12,480 nt of DNA, from assembly GCA_029259935.1 (NCBI GenBank), contig JAJDEH010000144.1:1-12480 (forward strand), read 5' to 3'. Shown here in pieces: positions 1-12,480 of the stretch. Numbering within the stretch: the first letter of the stretch is position 1; each line of letters begins with the position of its first letter. A program made the position numbers and the translations under genes. Below the pieces are notes generated by a model. It was not told the DNA's origin. It ran no database searches and saw only the letters and a list, made by a program, of their open reading frames with translations. Source of the DNA: Planctomycetota bacterium. Lineage in GTDB: Bacteria > Planctomycetota > Planctomycetia > Pirellulales > Pirellulaceae.

Positions 1-76
1 TTTCATTCTTATCACGTGTTTTTGTGGGCTGATGGCGTATGGTGGAACCTACTACCACCTTTCGGGGCGCGGCATG
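1..76. repeat. Terminal direct repeat, left copy (identical to 12405-12480)
   Basis: The first 76 bases match the last 76 bases of the window without a difference. They lie inside a coding sequence, not in an attC site. Joining the copies gives an uninterrupted reading frame, so the sequence most likely closes into a circle of 12,404 bp. A cassette duplication is the alternative. Confidence 0.97.
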
Positions 77-262
77 ACGGAGGCAGCGGAATGCCAGTTG
101 GCAGGCTTTCTGTACGTCCCAGCCGACGACGTGTTTGCATCTGAGGACCTTTCCGCGCACTATCGGCGTTGCGTCCTATTCGCTCCCGCAAATTGGGTCG
201 ATCGCAACATCTTCGGTAGTCCGCCGCCTATTCGCGGTACTGTGTTCCGGCTGGTCGGCTAA
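2..262 (+). CDS. Small single-helix membrane protein, 3' part (5' part at 12349-12480)
   Basis: This frame is open from base 2 and ends with TAA at 260-262, inside the R'' box of the following attC. Read through the identical ends it continues the gene starting at 12349, giving a 105-residue protein. The complete protein has a basic N-terminus (MKASGSILHRFRRFRLR), one hydrophobic helix (about residues 18-32) and an outward soluble part with GTYYHLSGRGM, FLYVPADDVF and APANWVDRNIFG. I know similar small proteins with a YY-L-S-G-M pattern and an APxNWxDR motif from planctomycetes, but no function. An ATG at 32 is an internal methionine and not the likely start, because the helix would be lost. 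The cassette runs from the R' box at 12330 to the R'' box at 257, and the two boxes are exact complements. Confidence 0.8.
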   Translation, partial: FILITCFCGLMAYGGTYYHLSGRGMTEAAECQLAGFLYVPADDVFASEDLSAHYRRCVLFAPANWVDRNIFGSPPPIRGTVFRLVG

Positions 263-396
263 CAAGCGATTGCTGCTGGGTCGCGGGCGCGAACGCCGTT
301 GCTTGTGCTTTGTCTTGGGAGATAATGATACTGCTACGCTGAGCGCAAAGACTTGACGCATAGAGAGTCGGCGTCAGCAATCCCAACCCGTTGGGC
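257..396 (+). other. attC site 1
   Basis: R'' is GGCTAAC (257-263) and R' is GTTGGGC (390-396), 140 bp in all. The inner arms GATTGCTG and CAGCAATC are complementary, as required for the folded single-strand substrate of an integron integrase. The stop codon of the upstream gene lies in R''. Confidence 0.85.
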
Positions 397-427
397 GAAC
401 TCAATTGAACTTAACGAGAGACGTTGA

Positions 428-631
428 ATGAACTCTGCTGACTTAATCAACGGCGGTATATCGTTGGCTATCGCTCTGTTTTGTGTCCTCTCGGCTTCAG
501 GAGTCGTTCCGATTGCCAAGACCAAGGAAGAGAATCGCGAGAAGTTAAACAAAATAGGGTGGTTGCTTTGGCTGGCCGCAATAGTCACGGGAATAATGGG
601 GGTCTTCAAACTCTTCGGAATTATGCGATAG
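428..631 (+). CDS. Small two-helix membrane protein (67 aa)
   Basis: The protein has two hydrophobic segments, about residues 8-30 and 44-64, joined by a short charged loop (KTKEENREKLNK). This makes a hairpin inner-membrane peptide likely, with no other domain visible. The ATG at 428 lies 32 bases after the R' box of attC 1, with a weak purine-rich stretch (GAGAG, 416-420) at a workable distance. It is the only gene in its cassette (391-781). Such short double-helix proteins are common in cassettes and can be toxin-like or stress-related, but nothing in this sequence decides that. Function unknown; I am fairly sure it is a gene because of the two well-formed helices and its position between two attC sites. 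Confidence 0.75.
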   Translation: MNSADLINGGISLAIALFCVLSASGVVPIAKTKEENREKLNKIGWLLWLAAIVTGIMGVFKLFGIMR

Positions 632-640
632 CTTCGGACC

Positions 641-787
641 GCACAACACCACACCTCCGCAGAGTTCGGCATCCATGCCGGATCGCCTTGAACTTGGGGC
701 AAAGCGCTATCATTTGTTAAGATGAAACTCATGCACGGCCTGTTTGGTGTCGCAAGTAGCGGCGACGGCTGTGCGAATCCGTTTGGC
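641..787 (+). other. attC site 2
   Basis: R'' is GCACAAC (641-647) and R' is GTTTGGC (781-787). The left arm shares its sequence (AGAGTTCGGCATCCATGCCG) with attC 3 and attC 17. R'' is imperfect relative to R', and arm pairing is poorer than in attC 3. Confidence 0.75.
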
Positions 788-806
788 GAACTCAAGGAGG
801 ATCGTG

Positions 807-1307
807 ATGCTCAACGTTATTCTGTTCGTTGTGACTGCTGTTCCCACTCTGGACGGCGCGAACGCTGCCCAACAGAAAGACCACGCAAACCCAATCGAGG
901 GCATCTGGATATTGGAATCCTATACGAACGAAGGAATCACAAAGTCAGGATCAGCCCCACGCACGACCTTTCAGTGGCAGCGAATTGAAATCGATGGCAA
1001 TTCATTGGTGGAATGGTACTTGCAATCAGCAAAGCCCGACGCGACGAAGATTGCAATGCGAATTAGGCTTCACCCAATGCATGATACCCAACAACTTGAG
1101 TTTGGTCGGGTACTTCCCAACGGTCGTCCAGATGCGTGGACGAAAAAAGGCATCTACAAGATTGAAGGCGACACATTGACCATTTGCTTTCGCGTCGAGC
1201 TGGCTGACGGACCGAAAGTTGAAGTCCCAAAAGAGTTTTCTGCCGCCGTTGGATCTCGAACTGGATTGGCCGTTTACAGGCGATTGAGATCGCTCAACAC
1301 AGAATAG
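807..1307 (+). CDS. Secreted TIGR03067-family protein (166 aa)
   Basis: The ATG at 807 follows a strong ribosome binding site (AAGGAGG, 794-800, spacing 6); the frame is open further upstream through the attC, but that part is not likely translated. The N-terminus (LNVILFVVTAVPTLDGANA) is a signal peptide with probable cleavage near residues 20-21. The mature part begins with EGIWILESY and ends with KKGIYKIEGDTLTICF, VPKEFSA and a GSRTGLAVYRRL strand. This is the pattern of the planctomycetal TIGR03067 domain, a small beta-rich fold of unknown function. The protein is probably exported to the periplasm or cell surface. Length is normal for a single-domain member. It is the only gene of its cassette (782-1451). 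Family assignment comes from pattern memory, not from a search. Confidence 0.85.
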   Translation: MLNVILFVVTAVPTLDGANAAQQKDHANPIEGIWILESYTNEGITKSGSAPRTTFQWQRIEIDGNSLVEWYLQSAKPDATKIAMRIRLHPMHDTQQLEFGRVLPNGRPDAWTKKGIYKIEGDTLTICFRVELADGPKVEVPKEFSAAVGSRTGLAVYRRLRSLNTE

Positions 1308-1310
1308 CCG

Positions 1311-1457
1311 GGCCAACACCGCACAAGCCGCAGAGTTCGGCATCCATGCCGAATCGCCTTGAACTTTGGGCGACGCTCCAACATTTGGTAAACTGAATTT
1401 CATGCATGGCTGTTTGATGTCGCAACCAGCGGCGACGGCTGTGCGGACCCGTTGGCG
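1311..1457 (+). other. attC site 3
   Basis: R'' is GGCCAAC (1311-1317) and R' is GTTGGCG (1451-1457). Arms CCGCACAAGCCG and CGGCTGTGCGG pair fully except for one unpaired A, the classic extrahelical base of attC hairpins. The core TAAACTGAA lies at 1389-1397. Confidence 0.92.
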
Positions 1458-1483
1458 CTCCAAACTCGCTGAAATTCCGCCAA

Positions 1484-1843
1484 ATGTCCGACCAATCGGA
1501 ATTCGACTTTGCTGCTGATATCTCAGCGTTGAGCAACGAGCGTCGGCTTCGCTTCTACGAGACTCTCGCACACAACCTGACAATCACCGTTCGCGTCGTT
1601 TGGGACGACAGCGACAGATCGGATGCGGAGAAGGTCAAGGCGATTCGCTGTATCAACGAGATACTTCATCGCGTTACGTCAAAGATCGCCGTAACTCGCA
1701 GAAGCCTTCACGAATGGACGGAATCTGACATGTGGTGCGAGATCAAACGGTGGGTCGCTGAGGACAAGTCGATTTCTGGTGATGTCGGTTGGGTGATCCG
1801 GCGTAGCTTCGAGATCGCGAACTCGAACGGGCGGACAACATAG
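1484..1843 (+). CDS. Conserved cassette protein of unknown function (119 aa)
   Basis: A soluble, charged, mostly helical protein with no signal peptide or membrane segment. Recognisable stretches are LSNERRLRFYETLAHNLTI, VRVVWDDS and INEILHRVTSKI, followed by HEWTESDMW and WVIRRSFEIA. I have a memory of this RFYExLAHNLTI...INEIxHRVT pattern in environmental and integron cassette proteins, without a function. The ATG at 1484 lies 27 bases after R' of attC 3, with no clear Shine-Dalgarno sequence. The C-terminus reads into the R'' box of the next attC and the TAG follows directly, so the end of the protein is encoded by the recombination site. It is alone in its cassette (1452-1962). Confidence 0.85.
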   Translation: MSDQSEFDFAADISALSNERRLRFYETLAHNLTITVRVVWDDSDRSDAEKVKAIRCINEILHRVTSKIAVTRRSLHEWTESDMWCEIKRWVAEDKSISGDVGWVIRRSFEIANSNGRTT

Positions 1844-1968
1844 ATTATTTACTAGTCGCTACGCGATCACCTTCGGCGTGATACGAACGGCGAACATTTG
1901 GTAGAATCAACACCTGATCAAAGTCGTCACTGTCGCGGGGACGGTGACAAATAATCTTTCCGTTGTGT
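1833..1968 (+). other. attC site 4
   Basis: R'' is GGACAAC (1833-1839) and R' is GTTGTGT (1962-1968). Arms AGATTATTT and AAATAATCT are perfectly complementary. The core TAGAATCAA is at 1902-1910. It belongs to the same sequence family as attC 9. Confidence 0.92.
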
Positions 1969-1980
1969 GCATGAAAACCG

Positions 1981-2250
1981 ATGAAAGCCGGAGACATTTG
2001 CGAAGGTGTTGTGACCCGGATCGAGCACTTTGGTCTTTTCGTCGAGGTTGATGGCGTCTCGGGACTAATTCGTGTTGTGGAATTGACTTGGGATTACATC
2101 CGACATCCATCTGACATTGCTTCCATTGGCGATCGTGTTCGATTCCAAGTCTTCAATCTGAACGATCCGATTAAGAGCCCACACGAACAGTTCAACGGAT
2201 CAATGAAAATCCTGATTCCAAGACCACCCAACGAATGTGGAATGTGGTAG
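1981..2250 (+). CDS. Single S1-domain RNA-binding protein (89 aa)
   Basis: Residues 3-60 form one S1 RNA-binding fold: GDICEGVVTRIEHFGLFVEV, then GVSGLIRVVELTW, then a stretch ending IGDRVRFQVFNLN. The aromatic positions on the binding face (HFGLF) are kept. S1 domains bind single-stranded RNA, usually on the ribosome or in RNA turnover; this stand-alone copy may act on mRNA or ribosomes, which is inference. The ATG at 1981 gives the S1 frame; an ATG at 1971 is in another frame. No clear ribosome binding site is present. Its cassette (1963-2407) is well marked because its opening box GTTGTGT and closing box ACACAAC are exact complements. After the S1 domain there is a short tail with no recognisable fold. 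Confidence 0.88.
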   Translation: MKAGDICEGVVTRIEHFGLFVEVDGVSGLIRVVELTWDYIRHPSDIASIGDRVRFQVFNLNDPIKSPHEQFNGSMKILIPRPPNECGMW

Positions 2251-2273
2251 TAGCGATTCGGGCAGCCCACGGC

Positions 2274-2413
2274 ACACAACACAGAATCATCCGCAAAGTC
2301 CCATCGGGATCGCCTTCCATCTTTCTCAACACGGGCTCACGTAATAGAATTACGTCGATAGTCAACGTCGCGCGATTCGTTCACTGCGGCGACGGATATT
2401 CTTCCCGTTGGGC
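2274..2413 (+). other. attC site 5
   Basis: R'' is ACACAAC (2274-2280) and R' is GTTGGGC (2407-2413). Arms AGAATCATCCG and CGGATATTCT pair with one extrahelical base. A TAGAAT core lies at 2345-2350. Confidence 0.9.
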
Positions 2414-2422
2414 GAACAGTTC

Positions 2423-2701
2423 GTGAATTCTCAATCGCTATACTCCCTCTGGTCAGAACTCGAGGATCGCTGGACAGATCACGTCCGGCACTGTTTCAAA
2501 TCTGGTAACGACATTCCCACGAATCCTTGGAGCGCAGACGATCTACAACTTGCGACCGCTTGGAATTCACTGACTCACCCAATGAATCTCGCGGCACTGC
2601 TTGAGTGGGGAAATACGCCAAATATGAATGACTTCGCTTGTGAGGCAACAGATGCAGCGATTCGGTTTTGTCGTGAACGTGCGCAACACAACGTCACTTG
2701 A
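2423..2701 (+). CDS. Small soluble protein of unknown function (92 aa)
   Basis: No family recognised. The protein is soluble and helical, rich in Trp, His and Asp/Glu, with the stretches SLYSLWSELEDRWTDHVRHC, PWSADDLQLATAWNS and AIRFCRERAQ. GTG at 2423 is chosen as start; an in-frame TTG at 2408 would add five residues but is part of the R' box itself. Neither has a clear ribosome binding site. The gene ends at 2701, four bases before the next R'' box. Its cassette is damaged at the 3' side: the following attC keeps only its left arm. Placement directly after an attC and a sensible amino-acid composition support it as a real gene. Confidence 0.7.
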   Translation: MNSQSLYSLWSELEDRWTDHVRHCFKSGNDIPTNPWSADDLQLATAWNSLTHPMNLAALLEWGNTPNMNDFACEATDAAIRFCRERAQHNVT

Positions 2702-2704
2702 GCC

Positions 2705-2740
2705 ACCCAACAGCGCACGAGCCACGGAGCTCGGCATCCA
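2705..2740 (+). other. Truncated attC (left arm only)
   Basis: R'' ACCCAAC (2705-2711) is followed by a left arm like that of attC 3, ending in TCGGCATCCA (2731-2740). After 2740 the similarity stops and a reverse-strand zinc-ribbon gene fragment begins. No core, right arm or R' box follows, so this site should not recombine. Confidence 0.75.
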
Positions 2741-2812
2741 GACGGAGCCGCAGTGCAAGCAATAGTTGCTTGACTCGGAATTCTCGGTGGCACATGCAGG
2801 GCAACTCAGCAT
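2741..2812 (-). pseudogene. N-terminal fragment of a zinc-ribbon protein gene
   Basis: On the minus strand an ATG at 2812 opens 24 codons reading MLSCPACATENSESSNYC then LHCGSV. This is a standard N-terminal zinc ribbon with two CxxC knuckles (residues 4-7 and 18-21), as found at the start of many zinc-ribbon membrane or kinase-associated proteins. At base 2741 the frame passes straight into attC sequence, so the rest of the gene is gone. It lies 108 bases downstream of the 530-codon gene on the same strand. Confidence 0.7.
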
Positions 2813-2920
2813 GTGGGCAATCTTACCGCGATATTCAAACCGTGTCTCTAAAGCATCGCATCGGACTTGCCCTGGGGCGAGCGGGTAGCCACGCGAGTCG
2901 CAGGAACCGCGGAAGAAGTT

Positions 2921-4513
2921 TCAGAACGGAAGATCGTCTTGTCGCCGCCGTTCGTCAAGCTGGCTCTGTAGATCGGCCGCCTTGACGGTCAGCACCGGGT
3001 GGGCGGCGGCGATTTGCTCCAGGACTTCGGCTAGTTGGGATGTCGCCGATGCCGTTAATGAGAAGTCACCGTTCGCGGCACGGAAAGCGTCAAAGGCGAC
3101 GTTGAGCGATTCGATCACGTCGTGGCTGGCACCCGCGTCTTGCAAATCGGATACGATCTCGGCGAGCCGCACCGCCAGGGCCATCATCGACAAGGGCGAC
3201 GACCCGCCGGCCCGGGACACCAAATCGTCATCGACATAGGATGTCGACCAGGCACTGGCAAACGGGTCTTCGCCCGCCGCCTCCTGTTGCAGTCGCTTTG
3301 CATCCATTTCTTCGCTGAACTTGCGGTACTCTTCCCGCTCCTGCTCCCATTCCTCCCGCGTTGCCCGCAGCGAGAATGCGAACTCATCGTCCAAATCCAG
3401 ATGGTGGCCATCGTAGCCGCGAAACATGGGGCCGAAACCGCCCTCGGCTTCCATCCGGCAAAGCGGGCAGTCGCAGTCGAGGTGGCTGCCATCGCCGACC
3501 AGCGGCATGCGTCGCCGTTCATTCTCAATGACTGCCGCCGGCGGGGTCGGGTCGCCATCCATCGAACCCTCCGCCAACCACCACTGAGCGTGATTGTGGA
3601 TTGCCTGCGTCAGCGCGGCGTGGCCTATCGCTGGCGTCTCGACAATCCGGTCCCGGGCGGTGTCGATCAACTCGCGGCAAAGGTTGAAATACATCACGAC
3701 TTCGTGACACCCTAGCGGACCATGGCGGTAGGCGAACGTATCGCGGTCGAGCGCGCGCGGCGCGCCGCCCTCGTTCGACCATTGCATCTGACGGTTGTGG
3801 AGTTCACGATCGACCCAATCACGTCCCTGGTGCAAAAAGGGACGAGGCGGTTTGCCTTCCAGATCCTCGCGCGGGGTCATCAGCCAGTCGGCGTGTACGG
3901 CAACGGTCAGCGCGTGCCATCGGGCCTCGATTTCGCGTTGCGATTCCGACGGCGACTCGTCCGGACCCGGATCGGACCACCCACGGCACCGCGCCGGCAG
4001 CGGCTCGCGACGGGCGGCCTCCAGCGTTCGCCGCGCTATCCCATCCGCGAGCGCTCGCCCGAACAGAACGCCACGAACGTCAAGCGGTTCGGCGGGGACG
4101 GGCAAGGGCGGCAGAGCTTCTTTCCAATCGGTGGCTTCGACGCACTGCCAATCGGGAGGCAAGTTGATCCACACGACGGGCATTTCACCATGCCAAGGCC
4201 CTTCATCACGTTGGAAAGCGGCCGGGTTTTCAGGCAACTCCGCGCCGCCGCCGGCCACGATGCGCAAACACGCCAAATCCAGCAGCAGCCACCGGCCCGT
4301 TGCCGGCGCGGCGGAACATTCTGTCCACGGCAATTCTTCGAGCGGGGCATTAGGTTGATATCGCAACCAAGCTCGGGCGAGTTCATCAAAGCAGCGTGGG
4401 TCGGCGGATAACGCCCCCACCAACGTCATCGTCGTCCAATCATCGGTTGGGCCAAGTTGCCGCAAACCATCCCGATCGCGGACGATCACGGTTTCTTCGT
4501 TCGTAGGGGCCAT
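2921..4513 (-). CDS. Large conserved hypothetical protein (530 aa), reverse strand
   Basis: This is the only long reverse-strand gene, and its G+C-rich third positions differ from the cassettes. No enzyme family recognised. There is no signal peptide or membrane helix. Visible parts are a Trp-rich N-terminal half, a segment HADWLMTPREDLEGKPPRPF (207-226) followed by HQGRDWVDRELHNRQMQW, a cysteine cluster DCDCPLC (C347, C349, C352) that could bind metal, an acidic stretch GHHLDLDDEF, a charged helical segment (384-415) and a helical C-terminal region (440-530) ending in basic RRR and DDLPF. The ATG at 4513 has no clear ribosome binding site; TAGAAT lies just upstream. The neighbours on both sides are cut fragments in the same orientation, so it looks like the intact middle gene of a chromosomal segment carried into the array. 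Confidence 0.85.
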   Translation of the reverse strand: MAPTNEETVIVRDRDGLRQLGPTDDWTTMTLVGALSADPRCFDELARAWLRYQPNAPLEELPWTECSAAPATGRWLLLDLACLRIVAGGGAELPENPAAFQRDEGPWHGEMPVVWINLPPDWQCVEATDWKEALPPLPVPAEPLDVRGVLFGRALADGIARRTLEAARREPLPARCRGWSDPGPDESPSESQREIEARWHALTVAVHADWLMTPREDLEGKPPRPFLHQGRDWVDRELHNRQMQWSNEGGAPRALDRDTFAYRHGPLGCHEVVMYFNLCRELIDTARDRIVETPAIGHAALTQAIHNHAQWWLAEGSMDGDPTPPAAVIENERRRMPLVGDGSHLDCDCPLCRMEAEGGFGPMFRGYDGHHLDLDDEFAFSLRATREEWEQEREEYRKFSEEMDAKRLQQEAAGEDPFASAWSTSYVDDDLVSRAGGSSPLSMMALAVRLAEIVSDLQDAGASHDVIESLNVAFDAFRAANGDFSLTASATSQLAEVLEQIAAAHPVLTVKAADLQSQLDERRRQDDLPF

Positions 4514-4530
4514 TTTCGATTCTATGAATT

Positions 4531-4662
4531 ACGAAAGAGCCGATGTGGATTGGACCCATCAGTAGACGGCATCCGCCGAAGAAGTCAACCGTCACGCGGT
4601 CAATGTACAGTAGGTCGAACTCCGTGGCCTCGCGGACCTGTCGCGCCTTGGCAAGGTTGAAT
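4531..4662 (-). pseudogene. Reverse-strand gene fragment upstream of the 530-aa gene
   Basis: In one minus-strand frame the third codon positions are strongly G or C, and the peptide reads like real protein: FNLAKARQVREATEFDLLYI followed by DRVTVDFFGGCRLLMGP. The other two frames have stops here. The coding character fades near 4531, and the frame runs on into the start of the next gene without a stop of its own. The upstream end is cut at 4662/4663, where attC-like sequence starts. I cannot name the family. It may be the tail of a gene with a shifted end, or a chance open frame. Confidence 0.35.
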
Positions 4663-4781
4663 GTGGTGCCCGCTTCGGCAGACGAGTTACGACCCGCATT
4701 TGCTATTCTGGCCATTCGCGCGTTAAATTGGCGGAGTTTCCCACACTTCCCGACAAGTTCTCGGCCAGCAACCCGTTGGCC
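4663..4781 (+). other. Partial attC (right part, R' intact)
   Basis: R' is GTTGGCC (4775-4781), opening the next cassette. The 119 bases are nearly the same as 10151-10269, and both copies start at the same base (GTGGTGCCCGCTTCGG). No R'' box with AAC is present on the left; instead a gene fragment abuts. It is the right border of the reverse-strand block. Confidence 0.7.
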
Positions 4782-4795
4782 GCACCTAAGTTGCC

Positions 4796-5119
4796 ATGAA
4801 CCGTCGCTGTGAAAAACGCCGCATCGCCCAAGGTGGACTGCCGCCTGATGCTGTTGCTGCTGACACATCACAACAGGTGCCGAACAACTCTTACGACTCG
4901 CCACCAACCTTCTACGTCGACATTCACTTCAAATGCTGTGATTGCAGTACCGAAGAAACTTGGACCGCAAAACAACAGAAATGGTACTACGAGGTTGCCA
5001 AGGGCACGCTTTACGCAACCGCTGTGCGATGCCGAGCGTGTCGTGACCGCATCAAAGCCGAAAAGGACATCCGGCGTGAGCAGATGCGTGCGTCTGAGAA
5101 CGCCAATAACGATGGATAA
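4796..5119 (+). CDS. Zinc-ribbon protein, zf-trcl-like (107 aa)
   Basis: Residues about 40-90 match the probable zinc-ribbon family zf-trcl: first knuckle FKCCDC (C47, C50), then ETWTAKQQKWYYEVAKG, then second knuckle RCRAC (C79, C82). The WTAKQQKWYYE stretch between the knuckles is the signature of that family. The N-terminal 35 residues are polar and probably disordered; the C-terminus is a charged helix. The domain likely holds one zinc ion and may bind nucleic acid or protein; no partner is known. The ATG at 4796 lies 14 bases after R' of the partial attC, without a clear ribosome binding site. An in-frame later start is possible, since the first 35 residues are not part of the domain. 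Confidence 0.85.
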   Translation: MNRRCEKRRIAQGGLPPDAVAADTSQQVPNNSYDSPPTFYVDIHFKCCDCSTEETWTAKQQKWYYEVAKGTLYATAVRCRACRDRIKAEKDIRREQMRASENANNDG

Positions 5120-5139
5120 TCTCTCAGCAATTCACGGGC

Positions 5140-5281
5140 GGACAACAAGGCATCTTCGGCAAAGTTGCTTCGCAATCGCCCTGATCTGCTTCATGCGTGC
5201 AAACATTTTGGTAGAATCAACAATTCTTCATAGCTTTTCCGTGTCGCTACATACGGCGACCGAAATGCCAACCCGTTAGCC
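5140..5281 (+). other. attC site 8
   Basis: R'' is GGACAAC (5140-5146) and R' is GTTAGCC (5275-5281). Arms GGCATCTTCGG and CCGAAATGCC pair with one extra base. The core TAGAATCAA is at 5212-5220. Confidence 0.9.
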
Positions 5282-5295
5282 GCACGAGGGAATCC

Positions 5296-5736
5296 GTGTA
5301 CCGACCGCTATGTGTCACGATTCTGAGCGCGGTGTTCGTCACAGGTTGTTCAGACCCAACTTACAAACACCGCGAAGCCCTCGCCATCGGTCTAACCAAG
5401 GCGATTGCGTGGCAGCATCCCGATTTGAATTCCGTCGCGACCGAACTGCAACGGATGCATTTGGGTGCAGGGCAAGCGGCTGCAACCGCCGAGGTACTCG
5501 AACAGTGCTTGGATTCGTCTCCACCATTTGACGATGAGTTGCTTTCACTTATTCGCACGTTCGCCGAGTCTTCTCGCAAACTTGAGGCTCAGTTTCGTCA
5601 GGCAATTTCCGATGGTCGCCCCGAACTGAGCCAGGAAGAACAAGAGATCGCCATCGCGTGTGGCAAAGCCAACTTCATCCTCTTCGGTGAGATTCTTGAG
5701 CGAATCAAATACAACGAATTGGTTGAATCGGAGTAG
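5296..5736 (+). CDS. Predicted lipoprotein of unknown function (146 aa)
   Basis: The N-terminus MYRPLCVTILSAVFVTGCSD is a lipoprotein signal peptide with lipobox VTGC and lipidated Cys18, so the protein should be anchored to a membrane, facing the periplasm. The mature part is helical and has no recognised domain; stretches include EALAIGLTKAIAWQHPDLN, GAGQAAATAEVLEQC, a long helix ESSRKLEAQFRQAI and EEQEIAIACGKANFILFGEI. The start is GTG at 5296, 15 bases after R' of attC 8, with GAGG at 5286-5289 as ribosome binding site. The lipoprotein signal begins directly at this codon, which supports the start. The 3' side of its cassette is damaged: the expected R'' appears only as GGCTAAA at 5745. 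Confidence 0.82.
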   Translation: MYRPLCVTILSAVFVTGCSDPTYKHREALAIGLTKAIAWQHPDLNSVATELQRMHLGAGQAAATAEVLEQCLDSSPPFDDELLSLIRTFAESSRKLEAQFRQAISDGRPELSQEEQEIAIACGKANFILFGEILERIKYNELVESE

Positions 5737-5744
5737 CACTCAGC

Positions 5745-5844
5745 GGCTAAATCGAGATAGGGGGTAGCCTTGGTGCAAACTCCAGTCGCCCAACAATGTT
5801 TCTGCTGTGGTGCGGATTGGCACTGAATGTTGGTGGCACCCGCC
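5745..5844 (+). other. Remnant of attC boxes between two cassettes
   Basis: GGCTAAA (5745-5751) is one base away from GGCTAAC, the exact partner of the R' box that opens the lipoprotein cassette (5275). A further R''-like GCCCAAC lies at 5788-5794. Neither has its own right arm or R' before attC 9 begins at 5845. A 19-codon frame (5796-5855) is present but is not a credible gene. Confidence 0.5.
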
Positions 5845-5980
5845 GCCCAACATAGATAATTTGCTAGTCGCTTCGCGATCACCTTCGGTGTGATGCAAGC
5901 CGCGAAAATTTGGTAGAATCAATCGTTGTTTTAACTCCTCGCCTTCACAAGGGCGGTGACAAATAATCTTCCCGTTGGTT
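5845..5980 (+). other. attC site 9
   Basis: R'' is GCCCAAC (5845-5851) and R' is GTTGGTT (5974-5980). Arms AGATAATTT and AAATAATCT pair with one mismatch. The core TAGAATCAA is at 5914-5922. It is of the same family as attC 4. Confidence 0.9.
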
Positions 5981-5993
5981 GCTCAGGAATAAT

Positions 5994-6911: not shown

Positions 6912-6923
6912 GGTGCTCGATTC

Positions 6924-7065
6924 GGCCAACAAGGCATCCACGCTTCGCCGCTTCGCCTACACCGCCCGGTTTTGTTCAGAGCGCGGCTTTGAAATACAAT
7001 CAACTCAATTTCACGACATGGTTCGCTTCGTTCGAGGCGGTGTCGTGGATGCCAACCCGTTGGCA
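6924..7065 (+). other. attC site 10
   Basis: R'' is GGCCAAC (6924-6930) and R' is GTTGGCA (7059-7065). Arms GGCATCCACG and CGTGGATGCC are perfect complements. The core is TACAATCAA (6995-7003). It is of the same family as attC 16. Confidence 0.93.
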
Positions 7066-7136
7066 GAACATCGCATATCTATAAACCACGCCGACGATTC
7101 TCTCCATACGACTGAAGCCGATAGTCGGCGGTCGAG

Positions 7137-7162
7137 CAAATGACCAAGGACAAATGACCAAG
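7137..7162 (+). repeat. Short direct repeat, CAAATGACCAAG twice
   Basis: CAAATGACCAAG occurs at 7137-7148 and again at 7151-7162, two bases apart, in the leader between attC 10 and the next gene. It may be a small duplication or a piece of a dispersed genomic repeat. No role is evident. Confidence 0.8.
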
Positions 7163-7196
7163 TCCTAGTTGGCTCGAAGGTGCCGAACAGAATCTT

Positions 7197-7958
7197 ATGT
7201 CTAATGCCCCGCAAGATTTCATTAATTTGTGGCAATACGGCAAGTTGCTTGTTGTCCACCGATCCAAGAGTCGGTTTCCTAATCGCTGCCTGAAGACCAA
7301 CGACGAAATCTTCGGCCGGCACACCAAAGTCAAATTGACTCGCCCGCAACGTCCTGGCGAAGAACCGCTCTCGGTATCGCTTTACGTCCCGCTGAATGGC
7401 CGCTGGCGACGCCGCAGCAAAAGGCTCGTCGGGATGCTAGTGTTATGGATCGGATTGTGCTTGTTTTTCGGCGGAGGCATTTACGCTGTCGTCGACCTTG
7501 AAAGCAACGCTGGGGTGATCGCTTCGATGTCAGGGACAATGTTGATGATCCTCAGTCCGTTGGTCCTTGCCTTTGAGTCGATTGGCGGGTTGCGACTCAA
7601 GTCGATCGATGGTGAATTCTATCGGATCGAGAGGGTTAGTCCCCGGTTTCTTGAAGGGTTGCCCCAGTTCGATGGCGAATCTCAATCGACCGAAGAGTTT
7701 GACGCCGCACATGGTGGCTCAGCGCGCCGGACGCCCACAGGGGTAACGACGCGAGGATCCTGTCTCGTCGCGGGGTTGCCAGCGGTGGGAGGAGTCGGAA
7801 TGCTGGCTTTCTTCGTTTTCAAGGGCATGCGGGCTGGTGGTGGCGGGCGAGTGATGGAGGGCGGCGGGCTGATGATCCTCTTGTTCGGTGCGATTGCCTT
7901 AGCAATTGGATTTGTCTGCTATGTGACCTTTCGCGTGTTTAAAAACTTCTTTGAATAA
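7197..7958 (+). CDS. Four-helix membrane protein of unknown function (253 aa)
   Basis: The soluble N-terminal part (1-70) contains WQYGKLLVVHRSKSRFPNRC, like a cytoplasmic motif that in related bacterial membrane proteins reads W-GK-LVV-LPxRCxxCN; here the second cysteine is replaced (CLKTND), so a metal site is unlikely. Four hydrophobic segments follow: about 77-99, 107-127, 189-208 and 222-243. Between helices two and three lies a loop with RVSPRFLEGLPQF, a stretch that in such proteins marks the end of a two-helix unit, so the C-terminal helix pair looks like an added module. The start at 7197 lies 131 bases after R' of attC 10, a long leader for this array, with no clear ribosome binding site. 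Function unknown. Confidence 0.82.
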   Translation: MSNAPQDFINLWQYGKLLVVHRSKSRFPNRCLKTNDEIFGRHTKVKLTRPQRPGEEPLSVSLYVPLNGRWRRRSKRLVGMLVLWIGLCLFFGGGIYAVVDLESNAGVIASMSGTMLMILSPLVLAFESIGGLRLKSIDGEFYRIERVSPRFLEGLPQFDGESQSTEEFDAAHGGSARRTPTGVTTRGSCLVAGLPAVGGVGMLAFFVFKGMRAGGGGRVMEGGGLMILLFGAIALAIGFVCYVTFRVFKNFFE

Positions 7959-8088
7959 GAGAGGCCGCGCTGTGCGCGAGTCTCCTGACCCCGCACATTC
8001 GTCCGGTCTCTTTCCACTCATGGGTGGACTGCTGCTCTGGCTGGCATCTAGGTTGTTCTTGTGGATCACGAATTGAATGCTTGTCGCC

Positions 8089-8227
8089 GCCCAACAATGA
8101 ATGCCCGCTGAGGGCCGGCGGCCACACCTTCCCCCTTGTTTCCACGCTCGTCCCCGTGGAGAATCAACTCTCACTCGACATCGGTCGCCTTCGATGAGGA
8201 CGGTGTCGGGCATTCAACCCATTGGCA
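8089..8227 (+). other. attC site 11, R' box with ATT in place of GTT
   Basis: R'' is GCCCAAC (8089-8095). Arms GAATGCCCG and CGGGCATTC are perfect complements. The box in R' position reads ATTGGCA (8221-8227): the base at the crossover, normally an invariant G, is A. The core is GAGAATCAA (8159-8167). Same family as attC 12, which has a normal GTT. Confidence 0.88.
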
Positions 8228-8238
8228 GGTCGAATGTT

Positions 8239-8550
8239 ATGTCGCAGAAACCGTACGACTCACCAGATGCTGATTCTGTAGACTCTACATCGTCAGGCGA
8301 TGCCGCTGCGCCTAAGTCCTCGAAATTGCCCCTTGGTGCCCATGTACTTTGCGGATGGCCTCTGCTGCTGGCTGCCGTCGGTGGCGCACTTGGTGGGGGA
8401 CTTGGAGGAGCGGCATATGTGATCAATATTGCGATCTACAAATCGACCTTGCCCGTACCCGTGAAGGCCGTGCTCAATATCGTGACTGGTATTGCCGCTA
8501 TTGCGATTTGGTTTGCGATTGCACTAGCGATCCATTCGGCGCGAAGCTGA
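8239..8550 (+). CDS. Small membrane protein with KPYDSP N-terminus (103 aa)
   Basis: The N-terminal 35 residues are polar and likely disordered, starting SQKPYDSPDADS; an NPYxSP-like motif at the N-terminus is a feature I know from many small planctomycetal membrane proteins. Two hydrophobic segments follow, about residues 40-65 (glycine-rich, GGALGGGLGGAAYVINIAIY) and 74-100. The ATG at 8239 is chosen because it opens this motif; the frame is open back to 8101 through the whole attC, which would add a meaningless leader. The protein probably sits in the inner membrane with its N-terminus in the cytoplasm. Function unknown. It is alone in its cassette (8222-8688). Confidence 0.82.
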   Translation: MSQKPYDSPDADSVDSTSSGDAAAPKSSKLPLGAHVLCGWPLLLAAVGGALGGGLGGAAYVINIAIYKSTLPVPVKAVLNIVTGIAAIAIWFAIALAIHSARS

Positions 8551-8557
8551 TTCCGGC

Positions 8558-8694
8558 AGCCAACAGTGAATGCCCGCTGGGGGCCTTCGGCCACACCTTC
8601 GCTCTTAATTCAACGCCCGTCCGTTGGAGAATCAAGTCTGCTCGACACTGGATGCCTTCGTTGACGGCGGTGTCGGGCATTCAAACCGTTGTAC
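8558..8694 (+). other. attC site 12
   Basis: R'' is AGCCAAC (8558-8564) and R' is GTTGTAC (8688-8694). Arms GAATGCCCG and CGGGCATTC are perfect complements. The core is GAGAATCAA (8627-8635). Confidence 0.92.
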
Positions 8695-8710
8695 GACCTC
8701 AGTTTATCCG

Positions 8711-9040
8711 ATGCGCTCCAGTATCAAGCTCGAATCCGAGATTATTGGCGATGGTCGGGAGGCTACGCGAGGTGACACGGTGACGGTTTCGTATGACCTT
8801 TCGCTCAACCGTGGCGACGTGGTGCAATCGCTCGACTTGTTTTCCTTTACACTTGACAAACGTGACGTAATCGCGGCGCTCGAATATGGCGTCGAAGGCA
8901 TGTGTGTGGGCGGGCGGCGTTGCTTTCGTGCTGGCCCGCATCTTGGATACCGCGACAAAGGCGTCGATGACATTATCCCACCGAATGCTGTACTGATTTT
9001 CGATCTCAAACTGCTTTCTGTCGCGCGCGATCTAGACTGA
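8711..9040 (+). CDS. FKBP-type peptidyl-prolyl cis-trans isomerase (109 aa)
   Basis: The whole protein is one FKBP domain of minimal size. In order it shows IIGDGREATRGDTVTVSYDL (first strands, with the conserved Tyr28), FSFTL, VIAALEYGVEGMCVGGRR (the VI-x-G-x-E-x-GV-x-GM-x-GG-R helix and turn), LGYRDKG (Tyr80 of the active-site loop) and IPPNAVLIFDLKLL (the last strand). FKBPs catalyse cis-trans isomerisation of X-Pro bonds during folding. No signal peptide is seen, so it acts in the cytoplasm. The loop after the second strand is short and lacks the Phe-Asp pair that lines the pocket in FKBP12, so activity may be low. The ATG at 8711 lies 17 bases after R' of attC 12; the frame is open further back through the attC. 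Cassette boxes GTTGTAC and GTACAAC are exact complements. Confidence 0.92.
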   Translation: MRSSIKLESEIIGDGREATRGDTVTVSYDLSLNRGDVVQSLDLFSFTLDKRDVIAALEYGVEGMCVGGRRCFRAGPHLGYRDKGVDDIIPPNAVLIFDLKLLSVARDLD

Positions 9041-9088
9041 CAGCTTTCAAGTTAATCACCGTGGAGACTCGCTTCCGCTGCAACGGTC

Positions 9089-9229
9089 GTACAACAGAGC
9101 ATCTGCCGCAGAGGCCCTGCGGGCACGCCTTCGCCTTTCATTTCACGGGCGCTCGCGTAAAATAACATTTAGTTGTTCGACGTTTTTCGCTTCGGTCTGG
9201 GGCGGCGTCGGCAGTGCTTCCCGTTGGCG
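9089..9229 (+). other. attC site 13
   Basis: R'' is GTACAAC (9089-9095) and R' is GTTGGCG (9223-9229). The left arm GCATCTGCCGC pairs with GCGGCGTCGGCAGTGC, leaving extrahelical bases. The core position holds TAAAATAAC. Confidence 0.88.
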
Positions 9230-9251
9230 GATCAGACTATTCAGAGTGGCG

Positions 9252-9575
9252 ATGACTGAGGCACCTGAAAACGACAATGTCCCAGACAAGTGTCCACCCC
9301 CTGGGACGTCCGAATACGATTCCTACATTGAGAAGCAATCGCGAAAGGCACTTATTGATGCGATGAATGCTCATCCCATCTTGCGAGTGTGCTCTACATT
9401 CGTGATCGTGATTCTTGGCACCGGAATCCTTTTCAGCGCGTTGGATGGTTTTCGAAATCGGCCCATGTGGGCTGCTATTCTCTCGTGTGTCGTGTTCGGC
9501 GTTTACGGCCTTTCGGTCCTGTCGTATCTCCGATACTGCTGGGGTAAACGTCGCCTTGATTATCCCGATGACTGA
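9252..9575 (+). CDS. Small two-helix membrane protein (107 aa)
   Basis: A polar N-terminal region of about 40 residues (TEAPENDNVPDKCPPPGTSE, then a charged stretch YIEKQSRKALIDAMNAH) leads into two hydrophobic segments, about residues 46-63 and 73-93, and a short basic tail (CWGKRRLDYPDD). It is likely an inner-membrane hairpin protein. No family recognised. ATG at 9252 is chosen; GTG at 9246 in the same frame would add two residues. It is the first of two genes in one cassette, with only 48 bases and no attC before the next gene, so the two are probably expressed and moved together. Confidence 0.78.
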   Translation: MTEAPENDNVPDKCPPPGTSEYDSYIEKQSRKALIDAMNAHPILRVCSTFVIVILGTGILFSALDGFRNRPMWAAILSCVVFGVYGLSVLSYLRYCWGKRRLDYPDD

Positions 9576-9623
9576 AAAGACCGTTGCCTGCCAAACCCAC
9601 AACTCATCTTGGGAATCCGTGAA

Positions 9624-10019
9624 ATGAACCCCGCCGTTTCTTCACCTTGGCCAATCGTTCTGACAGTCCTCACAGCGTTTCTTTTAAGCCCTTTTCGCAC
9701 ACCGGCTACTGGAGCCGACCGTGGGGTGTCGCCGGAGGATGTCACATCGGACCATTGGATTGGCCGATGGGAGGACGGAACAGGATACTTCGTTGACATC
9801 TCGAAAACCGACAAAGGTTTCAAGTTATCCCGCTCTGGCGAATTACATTCCGAATTGCGGTTCGTCGGCGCAACGAAAAAAGAACTCATTTACAGAGAAA
9901 CTTGGCCAACCTACATCCACATCTTGAAATACAAGTCCGAAGGCAAGATCCAGGACGTGTGGGTAGACATAGCGAAAAACACCGTCTCGGATGTTGTAAT
10001 TCTGCGCAGGACAAAATAG
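9624..10019 (+). CDS. Small secreted protein of unknown function (131 aa)
   Basis: The N-terminus (PWPIVLTVLTAFLLSPFRTP then ATGA) is a signal peptide with likely cleavage after about residue 31. The mature part looks beta-rich: HWIGRWEDGTGYFVDISKTD, LRFVGATKKELIYRE, YIHILKYKSEGKIQDVWVDI and VSDVVILRR. The WIGRWEDGTGYF...ISKT beginning resembles small lipocalin-like or lysozyme-inhibitor-like periplasmic proteins, but no diagnostic motif is present. ATG at 9624 is chosen; TTG at 9609 in frame would add five residues. It is the second gene of a two-gene cassette. Pairing a membrane protein with an exported one may be functional or may result from loss of an attC between them. Confidence 0.78.
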   Translation: MNPAVSSPWPIVLTVLTAFLLSPFRTPATGADRGVSPEDVTSDHWIGRWEDGTGYFVDISKTDKGFKLSRSGELHSELRFVGATKKELIYRETWPTYIHILKYKSEGKIQDVWVDIAKNTVSDVVILRRTK

Positions 10020-10022
10020 GCA

Positions 10023-10150
10023 AGCCAACACAGCATGGTCGCAACGCCGCTGTGCGGTCGTCTTCCTTCTTTCGCAACGCGGACTCGCGTAATAGAATCA
10101 ATCGTTGATCTACGGCGGCTGGGGATATTTAATCATGCTGCCCCTACGCC
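10023..10150 (+). other. attC site 14, R' box degraded
   Basis: R'' is AGCCAAC (10023-10029). The inner pairs CAGCATG and CATGCTG are complementary, and the core TAGAATCAA (10093-10101) is at the usual distance. Where R' is expected the sequence reads CTACGCC (10144-10150), lacking GTT, so this end should be inactive. Confidence 0.6.
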
Positions 10151-10269
10151 GTGGTGCCCGCTTCGGCAGACGAGTTACGACCCGCATTTGCTATTCTGGC
10201 CATTCACGCGTTAAGTTGGGGGAGTTTCCGATACTTCCCGACACGTTGTCGGCCAGAAACCCGTTAGCC
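10151..10269 (+). other. Partial attC (right part, R' intact), second copy
   Basis: Nearly the same 119 bases as 4663-4781, beginning at the same base and ending in R' GTTAGCC (10263-10269). It follows directly on the degraded attC 14 and has no R'' box of its own. It supplies the opening box of the WD40 cassette. Confidence 0.65.
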
Positions 10270-10293
10270 GAACACAATCTCGATTGCGATAAC

Positions 10294-11214
10294 ATGACCG
10301 CATGTGTGCAACGATCGAAGTGGCATGTAGACGGCGCGTCCTGCTTCCTTTTCCTCGGGCAGAACAGGCAACTGCTTTCGATCCAGAAGAACGGCCGTAA
10401 AACACAAGTGTGGTCAGTTGCCGACCAGGTCCTCATTTGCGAGTCCAGTCGATTCCAGAGTGCCATCCACGCAGCAGACTGCGTCAGTAACGATGGATTA
10501 ATCGTGCTGGGCGGGGGTGATCCGATGGACCCTGGAAATCCAAGGCTCAGTGAACTAGCCGTTTGGGATATGGCCACTGACCGCCTGATGTGGTCTCGGC
10601 GTGACGACGATGCCAAAGTCCATGACGTTGCCCTCAGCACCGACCAGCAAATCGCAGCATCCGTGAGCGCGTCGTTTCTCGTCCGTCTGTGGTCTGCAGA
10701 ATCCGGCGAACTGGTTCAAGACTTTGCACCGAACAATCACCACCAGCCTTTCTCTAAGGTAGTGTTCTCTGCTGATGGAAACCTCATCGCCGCCGCGTCG
10801 ATCGAAAACGTCTACGTGTGGGATCGTCAAACAGGCGAACTCGTCCATAAATTCGCACATGATACTTCCGTGTCTGCGTTGGCGTTTTCACCAGCCCATC
10901 AGCACCTCGTTTCGTTCAGCATCGAAAGAGGAGTCGTTCTCCACGACGTTGTCGCAAACTCGGCGGCTGAAGGGTTACGGATTGGTGAAGGTCGTATTAA
11001 CTGCCTCGCCTTTTCACCCAATGGCCGCCTGCTTCTCGCTGGCGGAGGTCGCACGAATGGAAAACTTTGGTGTTGGCAGTTGTCGGATCTCACGCCTCAG
11101 TTTGCGACCGACCTTCATGACAGACCAATTACGTCCATTTCCATCGCGCCTGGCGGAGACCTTGTGTCCACCGCCGCAGATGATCAAATCATCGCAATTT
11201 GGGAGCTTGAATAA
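10294..11214 (+). CDS. WD40-repeat beta-propeller protein (306 aa)
   Basis: Blade-ending motifs recur about every 40 residues: QVW (38-40), VWD (90-92), RLW (131-133), VWD (175-177), LHD (216-218), LWCW (258-261) and IWE (302-304). Typical VxFSxDGNLIAAAS strands come before several of them (156-169, 196-208, 238-250, 281-295). Seven blades make one complete propeller, which normally serves as a platform for protein binding; no enzyme domain is attached. There is no signal peptide, so it is cytoplasmic. The ATG at 10294 lies 25 bases after R'; the frame is open back to 10105 through the partial attC, but the propeller begins only here. It is a long gene for a cassette. Partner and role are unknown. 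Confidence 0.9.
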   Translation: MTACVQRSKWHVDGASCFLFLGQNRQLLSIQKNGRKTQVWSVADQVLICESSRFQSAIHAADCVSNDGLIVLGGGDPMDPGNPRLSELAVWDMATDRLMWSRRDDDAKVHDVALSTDQQIAASVSASFLVRLWSAESGELVQDFAPNNHHQPFSKVVFSADGNLIAAASIENVYVWDRQTGELVHKFAHDTSVSALAFSPAHQHLVSFSIERGVVLHDVVANSAAEGLRIGEGRINCLAFSPNGRLLLAGGGRTNGKLWCWQLSDLTPQFATDLHDRPITSISIAPGGDLVSTAADDQIIAIWELE

Positions 11215-11224
11215 CGTCCGTGGC

Positions 11225-11366
11225 GGCCAACACCGTTTGTTTGCTGGGCCGCCGAAGACGGCGGACGCTTCGTTTTGGTGCATACCGCGTCCTGATGTAG
11301 AATCAACTTGTCGATCGACGTTTCAGGTGTCGCAGGCACCGCGTCGAACAGACGAATCCGTTGGTC
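11225..11366 (+). other. attC site 15
   Basis: R'' is GGCCAAC (11225-11231) and R' is GTTGGTC (11360-11366). Arms CGTTTGTTTG and CGAACAGACG pair in part. The core TAGAATCAA is at 11298-11306. Confidence 0.88.
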
Positions 11367-11388
11367 GAACGCAAGCCGTGTGACTGCT

Positions 11389-11853
11389 ATGGTGCGAATG
11401 AAGGGTGAGCCAGAGGCAAACGTCTTTTTCACGTCGGAACAGGATGCGGCTATTGGGGCATCATCCGCCGTTGCCGATGGGGTAACAGGTGCAGCCCTTT
11501 ACGGCGTTTGCGCCGAAGGAATTGCCGCCCTACAGTACGCGATCACTGGCCAGGACTACGGTGCAGACGGAGTAGATCTAGACGTGCTCGGATCACACAA
11601 AGAAGTGTACGTCTACACCGAGATGCATGGCGGCTGGCTCTTTCGATTCCCAGATGAACTAGTTGATGCATTGGCGCATTTGGGTACAGGCGACGCACAT
11701 CGAGTTGGGAAGGCTTGGTCCAAGGCATTTCAAGTTGACGGCTGCCGACCATCCCTTGCGGACGTTTGTCAAATGCTTGAGCACTTGGTTGCCCTCGCAA
11801 AAAGTGCCGTTCAGCAAAGCAAGCCATTGTTTTGGCGGCAGGAAAGCTGCTGA
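11389..11853 (+). CDS. Soluble protein of unknown function (154 aa)
   Basis: No family recognised with confidence. There is no signal peptide or membrane helix. Visible stretches are FTSEQDAAIGASSAVADGVT, a region with YGADGVDLDVLGSHKEVYVY that may be a beta hairpin, WLFRFPDELVDALAHLG, GKAWSKAF, and a C-terminal helix VCQMLEHLVALAKSA ending in QQSKPLFWRQ. A final helix followed by a Phe-Trp strand recalls small proteins of immunity or DUF1877-like kind, but key motifs are lacking, so this is only a hint. ATG at 11389 is chosen; ATG at 11398 is also in frame. No clear ribosome binding site. Its cassette (11361-12000) is firmly bounded, as the boxes GTTGGTC and GACCAAC are exact complements. 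Confidence 0.8.
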   Translation: MVRMKGEPEANVFFTSEQDAAIGASSAVADGVTGAALYGVCAEGIAALQYAITGQDYGADGVDLDVLGSHKEVYVYTEMHGGWLFRFPDELVDALAHLGTGDAHRVGKAWSKAFQVDGCRPSLADVCQMLEHLVALAKSAVQQSKPLFWRQESC

Positions 11854-11864
11854 CCATCCTAGAC

Positions 11865-12006
11865 GACCAACAAGGCATTCACGCTACGCCGCTTCGCGGA
11901 CACCGCCCGACTTTGTTCATAACGCGGCTTTGTAATACAATCAACTCAGATTCACGACGTGGTTCGCTTCGTCAGATGCGGTGTCGTGAATGCCAAACCG
12001 TTAGTC
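11865..12006 (+). other. attC site 16
   Basis: R'' is GACCAAC (11865-11871) and R' is GTTAGTC (12000-12006). Arms GGCATTCACG and CGTGAATGCC are perfect complements. The core TACAATCAA is at 11936-11944. Same family as attC 10. Confidence 0.94.
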
Positions 12007-12027
12007 GTCGTAGCTTCGCAACGAAAT

Positions 12028-12246
12028 ATGAAGTATTACTCGGTCAGCGAAGCCGCGCAGATTTGCGGTGTGACGCCAGGGACAATCCGACGCTGGGTTC
12101 AGACTGGGAAATTGGACGATTACCACGCCAGCTCCCAATCGGACATTATGTCTCAGTCACACACGATCCGTATTTCCAAAGATGCCCTAGAAGCATATTG
12201 CGACGAGAATGGAATCGTCATGAAGTCGGGCCGCGATCGCCGCTAA
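12028..12246 (+). CDS. Excisionase/MerR-type helix-turn-helix DNA-binding protein (72 aa)
   Basis: Residues 3-26 are a winged helix-turn-helix of the HTH_17/excisionase type: YYSVSEAAQICGVTPGTIRR followed by WVQTGKL, with the wing running through HTIRISKDALEAYCDENG. This family includes phage and plasmid excisionases and small transcription factors, and binds a short DNA site. There is no other domain, as is usual for excisionases. The ATG at 12028 lies 22 bases after R' of attC 16. The TAA stop (12244-12246) is formed by the R'' box of attC 17. In a cassette array such a protein could regulate transcription or affect recombination, but cassette recombination is not known to need an excisionase, so this is speculation. 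Confidence 0.88.
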   Translation: MKYYSVSEAAQICGVTPGTIRRWVQTGKLDDYHASSQSDIMSQSHTIRISKDALEAYCDENGIVMKSGRDRR

Positions 12247-12336
12247 CAGCGCGCGGCCGCAGAGTTCGGCATCCATGCCGAATCGCCTTGAACTTTAGGC
12301 GACGCTCCAAATTTTTGGTAAAATGAACCGTTAGCC
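12241..12336 (+). other. attC site 17, right arm deleted
   Basis: R'' is CGCTAAC (12241-12247) and R' is GTTAGCC (12330-12336), but the site is only 96 bp. It follows attC 3 through the left arm and the core (TAAAATGAA, 12319-12327), then passes straight to CCGTT. The roughly 50 bases of right arm present in attC 2 and 3 are missing, so the normal hairpin cannot form. Confidence 0.82.
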
Positions 12337-12348
12337 GCGCCAAGATCC

Positions 12349-12480
12349 ATGAAAGCTTCTGGCTCGATACTGCATCGATTTCGACGGTTTCGATTGCGCG
12401 CACTTTTCATTCTTATCACGTGTTTTTGTGGGCTGATGGCGTATGGTGGAACCTACTACCACCTTTCGGGGCGCGGCATG
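12349..12480 (+). CDS. Small single-helix membrane protein, 5' part (3' part at 1-262)
   Basis: ATG at 12349 opens a frame that runs off the window end after 44 codons. It encodes a basic N-terminus (MKASGSILHRFRRFRLR), a hydrophobic helix (ALFILITCFCGLMAY) and the start of the outer part (GGTYYHLSGRGM). Since 12405-12480 equals 1-76, the frame continues at base 77 and ends at 262, giving 105 residues. The start lies 13 bases after R' of attC 17; no strong ribosome binding site is seen. The positive-inside rule places the N-terminus in the cytoplasm. Function unknown; see the 3' part for motifs. Confidence 0.8.
   Translation, partial: MKASGSILHRFRRFRLRALFILITCFCGLMAYGGTYYHLSGRGM
12405..12480. 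repeat. Terminal direct repeat, right copy (identical to 1-76)
   Basis: These 76 bases equal bases 1-76 exactly. The repeat begins and ends inside a coding frame with no sign of a mobile-element edge, which fits the closing overlap of a circular sequence better than a natural short repeat. Confidence 0.97.

Follow-up and report, generated by a model that had tools for sequence, protein, structure and literature searches.

Clusters of attC sites lacking an integron-integrase (CALINs) are called by IntegronFinder from a threshold of two attC sites, and those in the accompanying survey carry almost 6 attC on average (PMC9024848). The DNA analysed here is contig JAJDEH010000144.1 of a Planctomycetota bacterium (assembly GCA_029259935.1); the window is this complete contig, 12,480 nt, and the window's own proteins are listed in the protein collection on a contig of 12,480. 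Analysis of the window revealed an array of integron-type gene cassettes with 15 attC sites by covariance model and two half-sites, cassette-sized genes, a single orientation and no integrase among the 18 frames of the contig itself, in all of which it is like a CALIN. Unlike a CALIN, it was assembled closed and its array is interrupted by an inverted GC-rich gene.

Excised circular cassettes are known from class 1 integrons, and a circle of several cassettes, such as the dfrA12-orfF-aadA2 circle (PMC5039178), would look like the window contig. That circle has 3 sites, however, against 17 sites and half-sites in the window, and the circles described are rare and non-replicative whereas the window is known as a closed contig only. 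Small cryptic plasmids are similar in size and also give closed contigs, but neither a replication nor a mobilisation family was recognised in the window, and the 72,556 plasmid records contain no relative.

The window is probably a segment of an old, sedentary, integrase-less array of CALIN type from Planctomycetota that was assembled as a closed 12,404-bp cycle and is most likely chromosomal. A chromosomal location, lost flanks and an integrase encoded elsewhere are what we infer for it. This form was judged likelier than a physical circle because the cassette boxes are eroded, free cassette circles are rare in print, plasmid features are lacking and a related chromosomal array contains exact duplications.

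attC sites and cassette boundaries

The sites of the window are listed below; all are on the + strand and, where nothing else is stated, are based on alignment and the covariance model.

256–396, +: attC A1 (R'' GGCTAAC at 257, R' GTTGGGC at 390; alignment, boxes and model)
640–787, +: attC A2
1310–1457, +: attC A3
1832–1968, +: attC A4
2273–2413, +: attC A5
2704–2751, +: attC A6, left half only (R'' ACCCAAC at 2705); not a whole site by the model
4663–4785, +: attC A7, right part only (R' GTTGGCC at 4775), 92% identical to 10151–10273; not a whole site by the model
5139–5281, +: attC A8
5844–5980, +: attC A9
6923–7065, +: attC A10
8088–8227, +: attC A11
8557–8694, +: attC A12
9088–9229, +: attC A13
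10022–10273, +: attC A14, apparently composite; the model matches 10022–10180 only, at 34.8 bits
11224–11366, +: attC A15
11864–12006, +: attC A16
12240–12336, +: attC A17, truncated (96 nt, no L' arm; R' GTTAGCC at 12330)

The weakest of the 15 sites found by the model had an E value of 7e-8; the model was built from 14 of these 15 sites, A14 alone being an independent find. The 14 aligned sites showed a consensus fold with R''/R' and L''/L' pairing and a compensatory change in 14 of 20 pairs. An Rfam search of the window returned nothing at E up to 1, which is uninformative about attC. A6 (2704) and A7 (4663) are two half-sites lying either side of an inverted 530-aa gene in a GC-rich block. 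A14 (10022) was apparently composite, with a left half at 10022 and a right part in common with A7. The two right-hand parts (4663–4785 and 10151–10273) share 92% identity over 123 nt, 55 nt of it an exact core, and differ from the other sites; they may represent a second attC subfamily or a recent copy. Truncation has left A17 (12241–12336) with 96 nt and no L' arm, and the site directly upstream of the cassette that spans the contig ends, the join cassette, is therefore damaged.

The start box of an integron cassette is complementary to the R'' box of that same cassette. This was tested for 16 of the 17 cassettes, the boxes of the inverted block between A6 and A7 not being placeable, and gave 18 mismatches where permutation gave 30.1 (P about 1e-4); for the 15 internal cassettes by themselves, P was 4e-4. 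Own box pairs were exact in 4/16 cassettes (the join cassette and 3/15 internal ones) and non-own pairs in 9/240. The window therefore shows both the start-box rule of integron gene cassettes and attC pairing with compensatory change, which confirms that the contig is a cassette array, as an earlier note made from the letters alone had proposed.

The contig ends and the join gene

The same note had argued that the contig appears to close into a circle, from identical 76-bp ends, a gene that is cut by the ends and reads through the join in frame, and complementary boxes on either side of it. Each of these three observations was reproduced. The features concerned are:

1–76, +: terminal overlap, left copy, exact 76 nt (repeat comparison)
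2–262, +: join gene, 3' part (open reading frame (ORF) and relatives)
12349–12480, +: join gene, 5' part (105 aa over the join; continues at 77–262; ORF and relatives)
12405–12480, +: terminal overlap, right copy, exact 76 nt (repeat comparison)

The first 76 nt of the window are identical to the last 76 nt (1–76 = 12405–12480); the match is exact, no longer overlap is present, and the circle that it implies is 12,404 bp. The longest exact direct repeat besides the contig ends is 55 nt (4663/10151). The ORF split by the ends runs in frame from 12349 across the join to 262 and encodes 105 aa. Two of the three relatives found by protein search (P0001 and P0002) align on both sides of the overlap, and of the six genomes with matches to the gene, among 396 in the order of G001 (a Planctomycetota genome described below), three (G050, G224 and G031) have matches that span it. 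Because relatives align on both sides of the overlap, the join gene is a natural gene and not a chance read-through, and the join falls within a real, intact cassette. Relatives spanning the overlap were found in none of the three genomes G001–G003, and in viral contigs six stretches fitted a pattern of the join protein, of which none was confirmed. By eye, the join gene product has a hydrophobic stretch near its N terminus.

The R' box GTTAGCC at 12330 and the R'' box GGCTAAC at 257 are exact reverse complements, as one cassette would have. Three of the 16 start boxes, including that at 12330, fit the R'' at 257 exactly, and only one of the 16 R'' boxes, that at 257, fits the start at 12330. 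These matches moderately support the presence of a single cassette across the join.

The intact closing cassette, and the position of the contig ends inside an ORF and not at an attC boundary, would also be expected of a persistent extrachromosomal circle of cassettes, that is, a small replicon kept by unrecognised or host functions. We regard such a replicon as unlikely, given the searches below.

Related arrays in Planctomycetota and wear of the array

In the genome collection, four contigs carried an exact 24-nt attC pattern, and all four belong to three Planctomycetota metagenome-assembled genomes (MAGs; G001–G003). The attC sites of the window matched many contigs of these MAGs, with up to 89% identity over the whole site. 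Some part of the window was matched in at least 25 of 296 genomes of the order of G001 and in at least 1 of 51 genomes of the family of G002 (G002 itself), both figures being lower bounds as few candidates were scored per genome (2 in the G001-order search and 5 in the G002-family search). The attC model had matches in 6/8 chosen genomes, the exceptions being G132 and G294; an integron integrase above the family cut-off was likewise present in 6/8, including G294, which is without this attC type. A truncated attC relative on contig C195 of G002 was rejected, the truncation being only apparent as the site holds a run of Ns.

An array for comparison was provided by genome G279, in which 29 attC sites (up to 88.9 bits) lie on one 983-kb contig (C3, 663–682 kb). 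The first of them is 0.7 kb after the gene for a 502-aa recombinase (locus L049, 3348–4856) whose best NCBIfam matches, NF040815 and TIGR02249, are both under cut-off. A similar gene in G002, encoding a 443-aa recombinase (locus L053, 3259–4590, on G002 contig C142), precedes an array there and is also under the TIGR02249 cut-off. From their sequences, the two recombinases are possibly a planctomycete variant of integron integrase. Inspected by eye and unaligned, both have a C-terminal extension with a similar SPEFY-ILQR stretch. Its matches in these genomes, with the arrays of G279 and G002, show that the attC family belongs to arrays in genomes of Planctomycetota.

The chromosomal array of G279, a locus resembling a sedentary integron, is like the window in having the same attC family, found by the same model, and a similar cassette spacing. 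Unlike the window, which has no integrase and exact own boxes in 4/16 cassettes, it has the integrase-like gene before its first site and exact boxes in 21/23 pairs (Fisher P 3e-5). For this control 24 of the 26 sites in L049 were used, 14623–14830 and 6119–6271 being left out; each of the two non-exact pairs spans an omitted site, and the array of G279 may be exact throughout. The eroded boxes, the truncated attC, the two half-sites and the inverted gene suggest that the array of the window has decayed rather than exchanged cassettes. It looks like a decaying CALIN, and other arrays of the group may be too.

The array of G279 also contains exact duplications of 469 nt (L049 6251/12541) and 310 nt (11957/19691), spaced 6,290 and 7,734 nt apart. 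Repeated cassettes are therefore realistic in this lineage, although closure of a contig also needs lost flanks. The arrays of the MAGs G001–G003 had no exact repeat of 76 nt or longer, which is not evidence of absence since short-read contigs would break at such repeats.

Integrase, replication and mobilisation genes

In agreement with the earlier note, no integrase, replication or partition family was recognised by Pfam among the 18 window frames or by PHROGs, PADLOC or NCBIfam (10 frames each), and these scans recognised no mobilisation family either. A complete integron, with intI and attI beside the array, was not found: the 18 frames contain no recombinase, and attI was not searched for. 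No plasmid replication initiation gene or known replicon was recognised, an initiator of an unknown type still being possible. The 72,556 plasmid records gave no match to the window, either near (whole window) or distant (1–8000 and 4481–12480). A distant search of phage records with 1–8000 gave no match, and nothing was found in viral contigs with two attC patterns and a 30-nt pattern from the overlap. Tandem repeats were limited to six weak ones, each with about two copies, none forming an iteron-like array, and GC skew showed no two-arm pattern by eye.

The largest gene present encodes the inverted 530-aa protein, which has 233 relatives; a few among the 120 listed are named Pirellulaceae or Pirellula. 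The longest contig carrying a member of its family is 3.1 Mb (P0117, 36% identity); for full-length members it is 326 kb (P0027, 48%). The protein gave a confident AlphaFold model (mean pLDDT 85.5) but no PDB match at E up to 0.001, and no match in Pfam, NCBIfam, PHROGs or PADLOC. It may still have a role in replication, although the PDB search gave no support for one and the relatives are on long contigs. The lack of recognised replication, partition and mobilisation families, of iteron-like repeats and of plasmid relatives, together with the occurrence of the 530-aa family on long contigs, all argue against a small replicon. So does the size of the array: in one RefSeq survey, the largest integron reported on a plasmid-sized replicon had 10 attC on 46 kb (PMC9024848).

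Assembly and physical form

In CheckV, overlaps at contig ends were described as peaking at 55, 77 and 99, equal to k (PMC8116208). The overlap of the window is one off the peak at 77 and would fit an assembler that leaves k−1 at k=77. Simulation of compacted graphs at k=77 showed that an isolated 12,404-bp circle gives one closed unitig of exactly 12,480 nt with the 76-nt overlap, as a small replicon would. The earlier note had reasoned that a plain long repeat would leave different sequences at the two contig ends, and the simulation agrees. There is good support for a cycle in the assembly graph, whether it arose as an isolated cycle, through lost flanks or through a coincidence of length.

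For the chromosomal array favoured here, the cassettes would once have been gathered by an integrase encoded elsewhere, as the attC sites imply, and the array would since have decayed rather than exchanged cassettes. The unit may be tandem-repeated in the chromosome, or bounded there by copies of one cassette, and a closed cycle would result if edges leading into the flanks had been pruned from the graph or divided among strains; alternatively, two cassettes may share exactly the 76 nt. Similar attC sites are reported to complicate assembly (PMC9024848).

Several results weigh against this interpretation. Contigs with direct terminal repeats are described as often derived from circular genomes (PMC8116208). 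Open unitigs were obtained at k=77 both from a loop joining two copies of the join cassette and from a flanked four-fold tandem array, and the G279 region with its real duplications gave no closed unitig at k 55, 77, 99 or 127; a chromosomal form therefore needs lost flanks or an exact 76-nt repeat. The assembly loop in a longer array, which the earlier note had offered as the sober alternative, is thus realistic in the lineage, but a loop alone does not close and flank loss is also required. Smaller arrays (G001, G002, G003, G207 and the end of the G279 array) had exact boxes in 14/27 scored pairs, which compared to the window gave P 0.12. These were pooled from 13 loci with 42 neighbouring pairs, the pairs not scored being without a placed box or more than 1,700 nt apart, and some weak sites and L052 were not entered. 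The smaller arrays are partly eroded as well, and erosion therefore does not single out the array of the window.

In the sub-case of a length coincidence, counted within the chromosomal reading, two different cassettes would share an exact 76-nt block and the contig would be a linear piece of the array. An exact 76-nt repeat does close to a 12,480 contig at k=77, but repeats of 77, 78, 90 and 120 nt do not close and those of 60 and 75 nt leave the contig unbroken; moreover, the join cassette boxes match exactly, compared to 9/240 non-own pairs. We consider a coincidence of this kind very improbable.

A multi-cassette circle excised from a longer array by an integron integrase (attC x attC) was given equally little weight. 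Free circles holding a single cassette or several are a known product (PMC3518468), and all 15 modelled sites point the same way. The literature describes gene cassettes as non-replicative, however, and their circular intermediates as very low in abundance (PMC3518468). In Aeromonas, polymerase chain reaction revealed a circle of three cassettes, also at very low abundance, as its authors stress; they were aware of no other published circle with more than one cassette (PMC5039178). Multi-cassette circles as such are therefore not new, although the earlier note had taken a circle of about 16 cassettes to be so. With excised circles so rare and non-replicative, the parent array should dominate the reads, and a circle simulated at k=77 together with the parent array gave open unitigs and no closed contig. 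Box erosion, in addition, suggests inactivity. A physical circle was not supported as the leading reading, the place that the earlier note had given it, and a similarly slight share of our expectation was kept for forms not listed here.

A physical circle would mean that cassette arrays can last, and perhaps move, with neither a chromosome nor a known replicon to carry them, and would bear directly on the way in which cassettes pass from cell to cell. A self-maintained extrachromosomal circle composed almost only of cassettes (17 attC sites and half-sites, no integrase and no recognised replication gene) could act as a reservoir feeding an integrase elsewhere in the cell, a proposal that we regard as slightly more doubtful still than the small replicon itself. 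If chromosomal, the window is an ordinary array imitating a circle in assembly and a warning for surveys that treat terminal overlaps as proof of circularity. Either way, the match of a cassette's own R' and R'' boxes is a cheap test of contig-end joins and of array wear.

Cassette genes

The remaining genes of the window are:

428–631, +: cassette ORF, 67 aa (ORF, Pfam scan)
744–1307, +: cassette ORF, open from TTG 744 inside A2; weak TIGR03067 match under cut-off (ORF, NCBIfam)
1484–1843, +: cassette ORF, 119 aa (ORF)
1981–2250, +: cassette ORF, 89 aa, S1 RNA-binding domain (Pfam)
2408–2701, +: cassette ORF, 97 aa (ORF)
2921–4513, −: inverted 530-aa gene, GC about 64% (ORF, relatives, structure model)
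4796–5119, +: cassette ORF, 107 aa, zf_Tbcl domain (Pfam)
5296–5736, +: cassette ORF, 146 aa (ORF)
5979–6911, +: cassette ORF, 310 aa; nothing besides the window's own copy in the protein search
7197–7958, +: cassette ORF, 253 aa (ORF)
8239–8550, +: cassette ORF, 103 aa (ORF)
8624–9040, +: cassette ORF, open from TTG 8624 inside A12; FKBP-type isomerase domain (Pfam)
9246–9575, +: cassette ORF, 109 aa (ORF)
9609–10019, +: second ORF of the cassette holding 9246–9575, 136 aa (ORF)
10294–11214, +: cassette ORF, WD40 repeats (Pfam, scanned as frame 10105–11214)
11389–11853, +: cassette ORF, 154 aa (ORF)
12022–12246, +: cassette ORF, 74 aa, excisionase-type helix-turn-helix (TIGR01764, 31.7 bits compared to a cut-off of 28.8)

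TIGR03067, to which one cassette has a weak match under cut-off, is a domain named for planctomycetes. After the 253-aa gene, at 7963–7997, a stretch of 30 to 34 nt is 97% identical in G003, G076 and G188 (twice), with no match reported around it. The 74-aa helix-turn-helix protein showed weak generic matches to excisionase, transposase and terminase-small-subunit families (PHROGs, NCBIfam), and its gene sits directly before the truncated attC A17.

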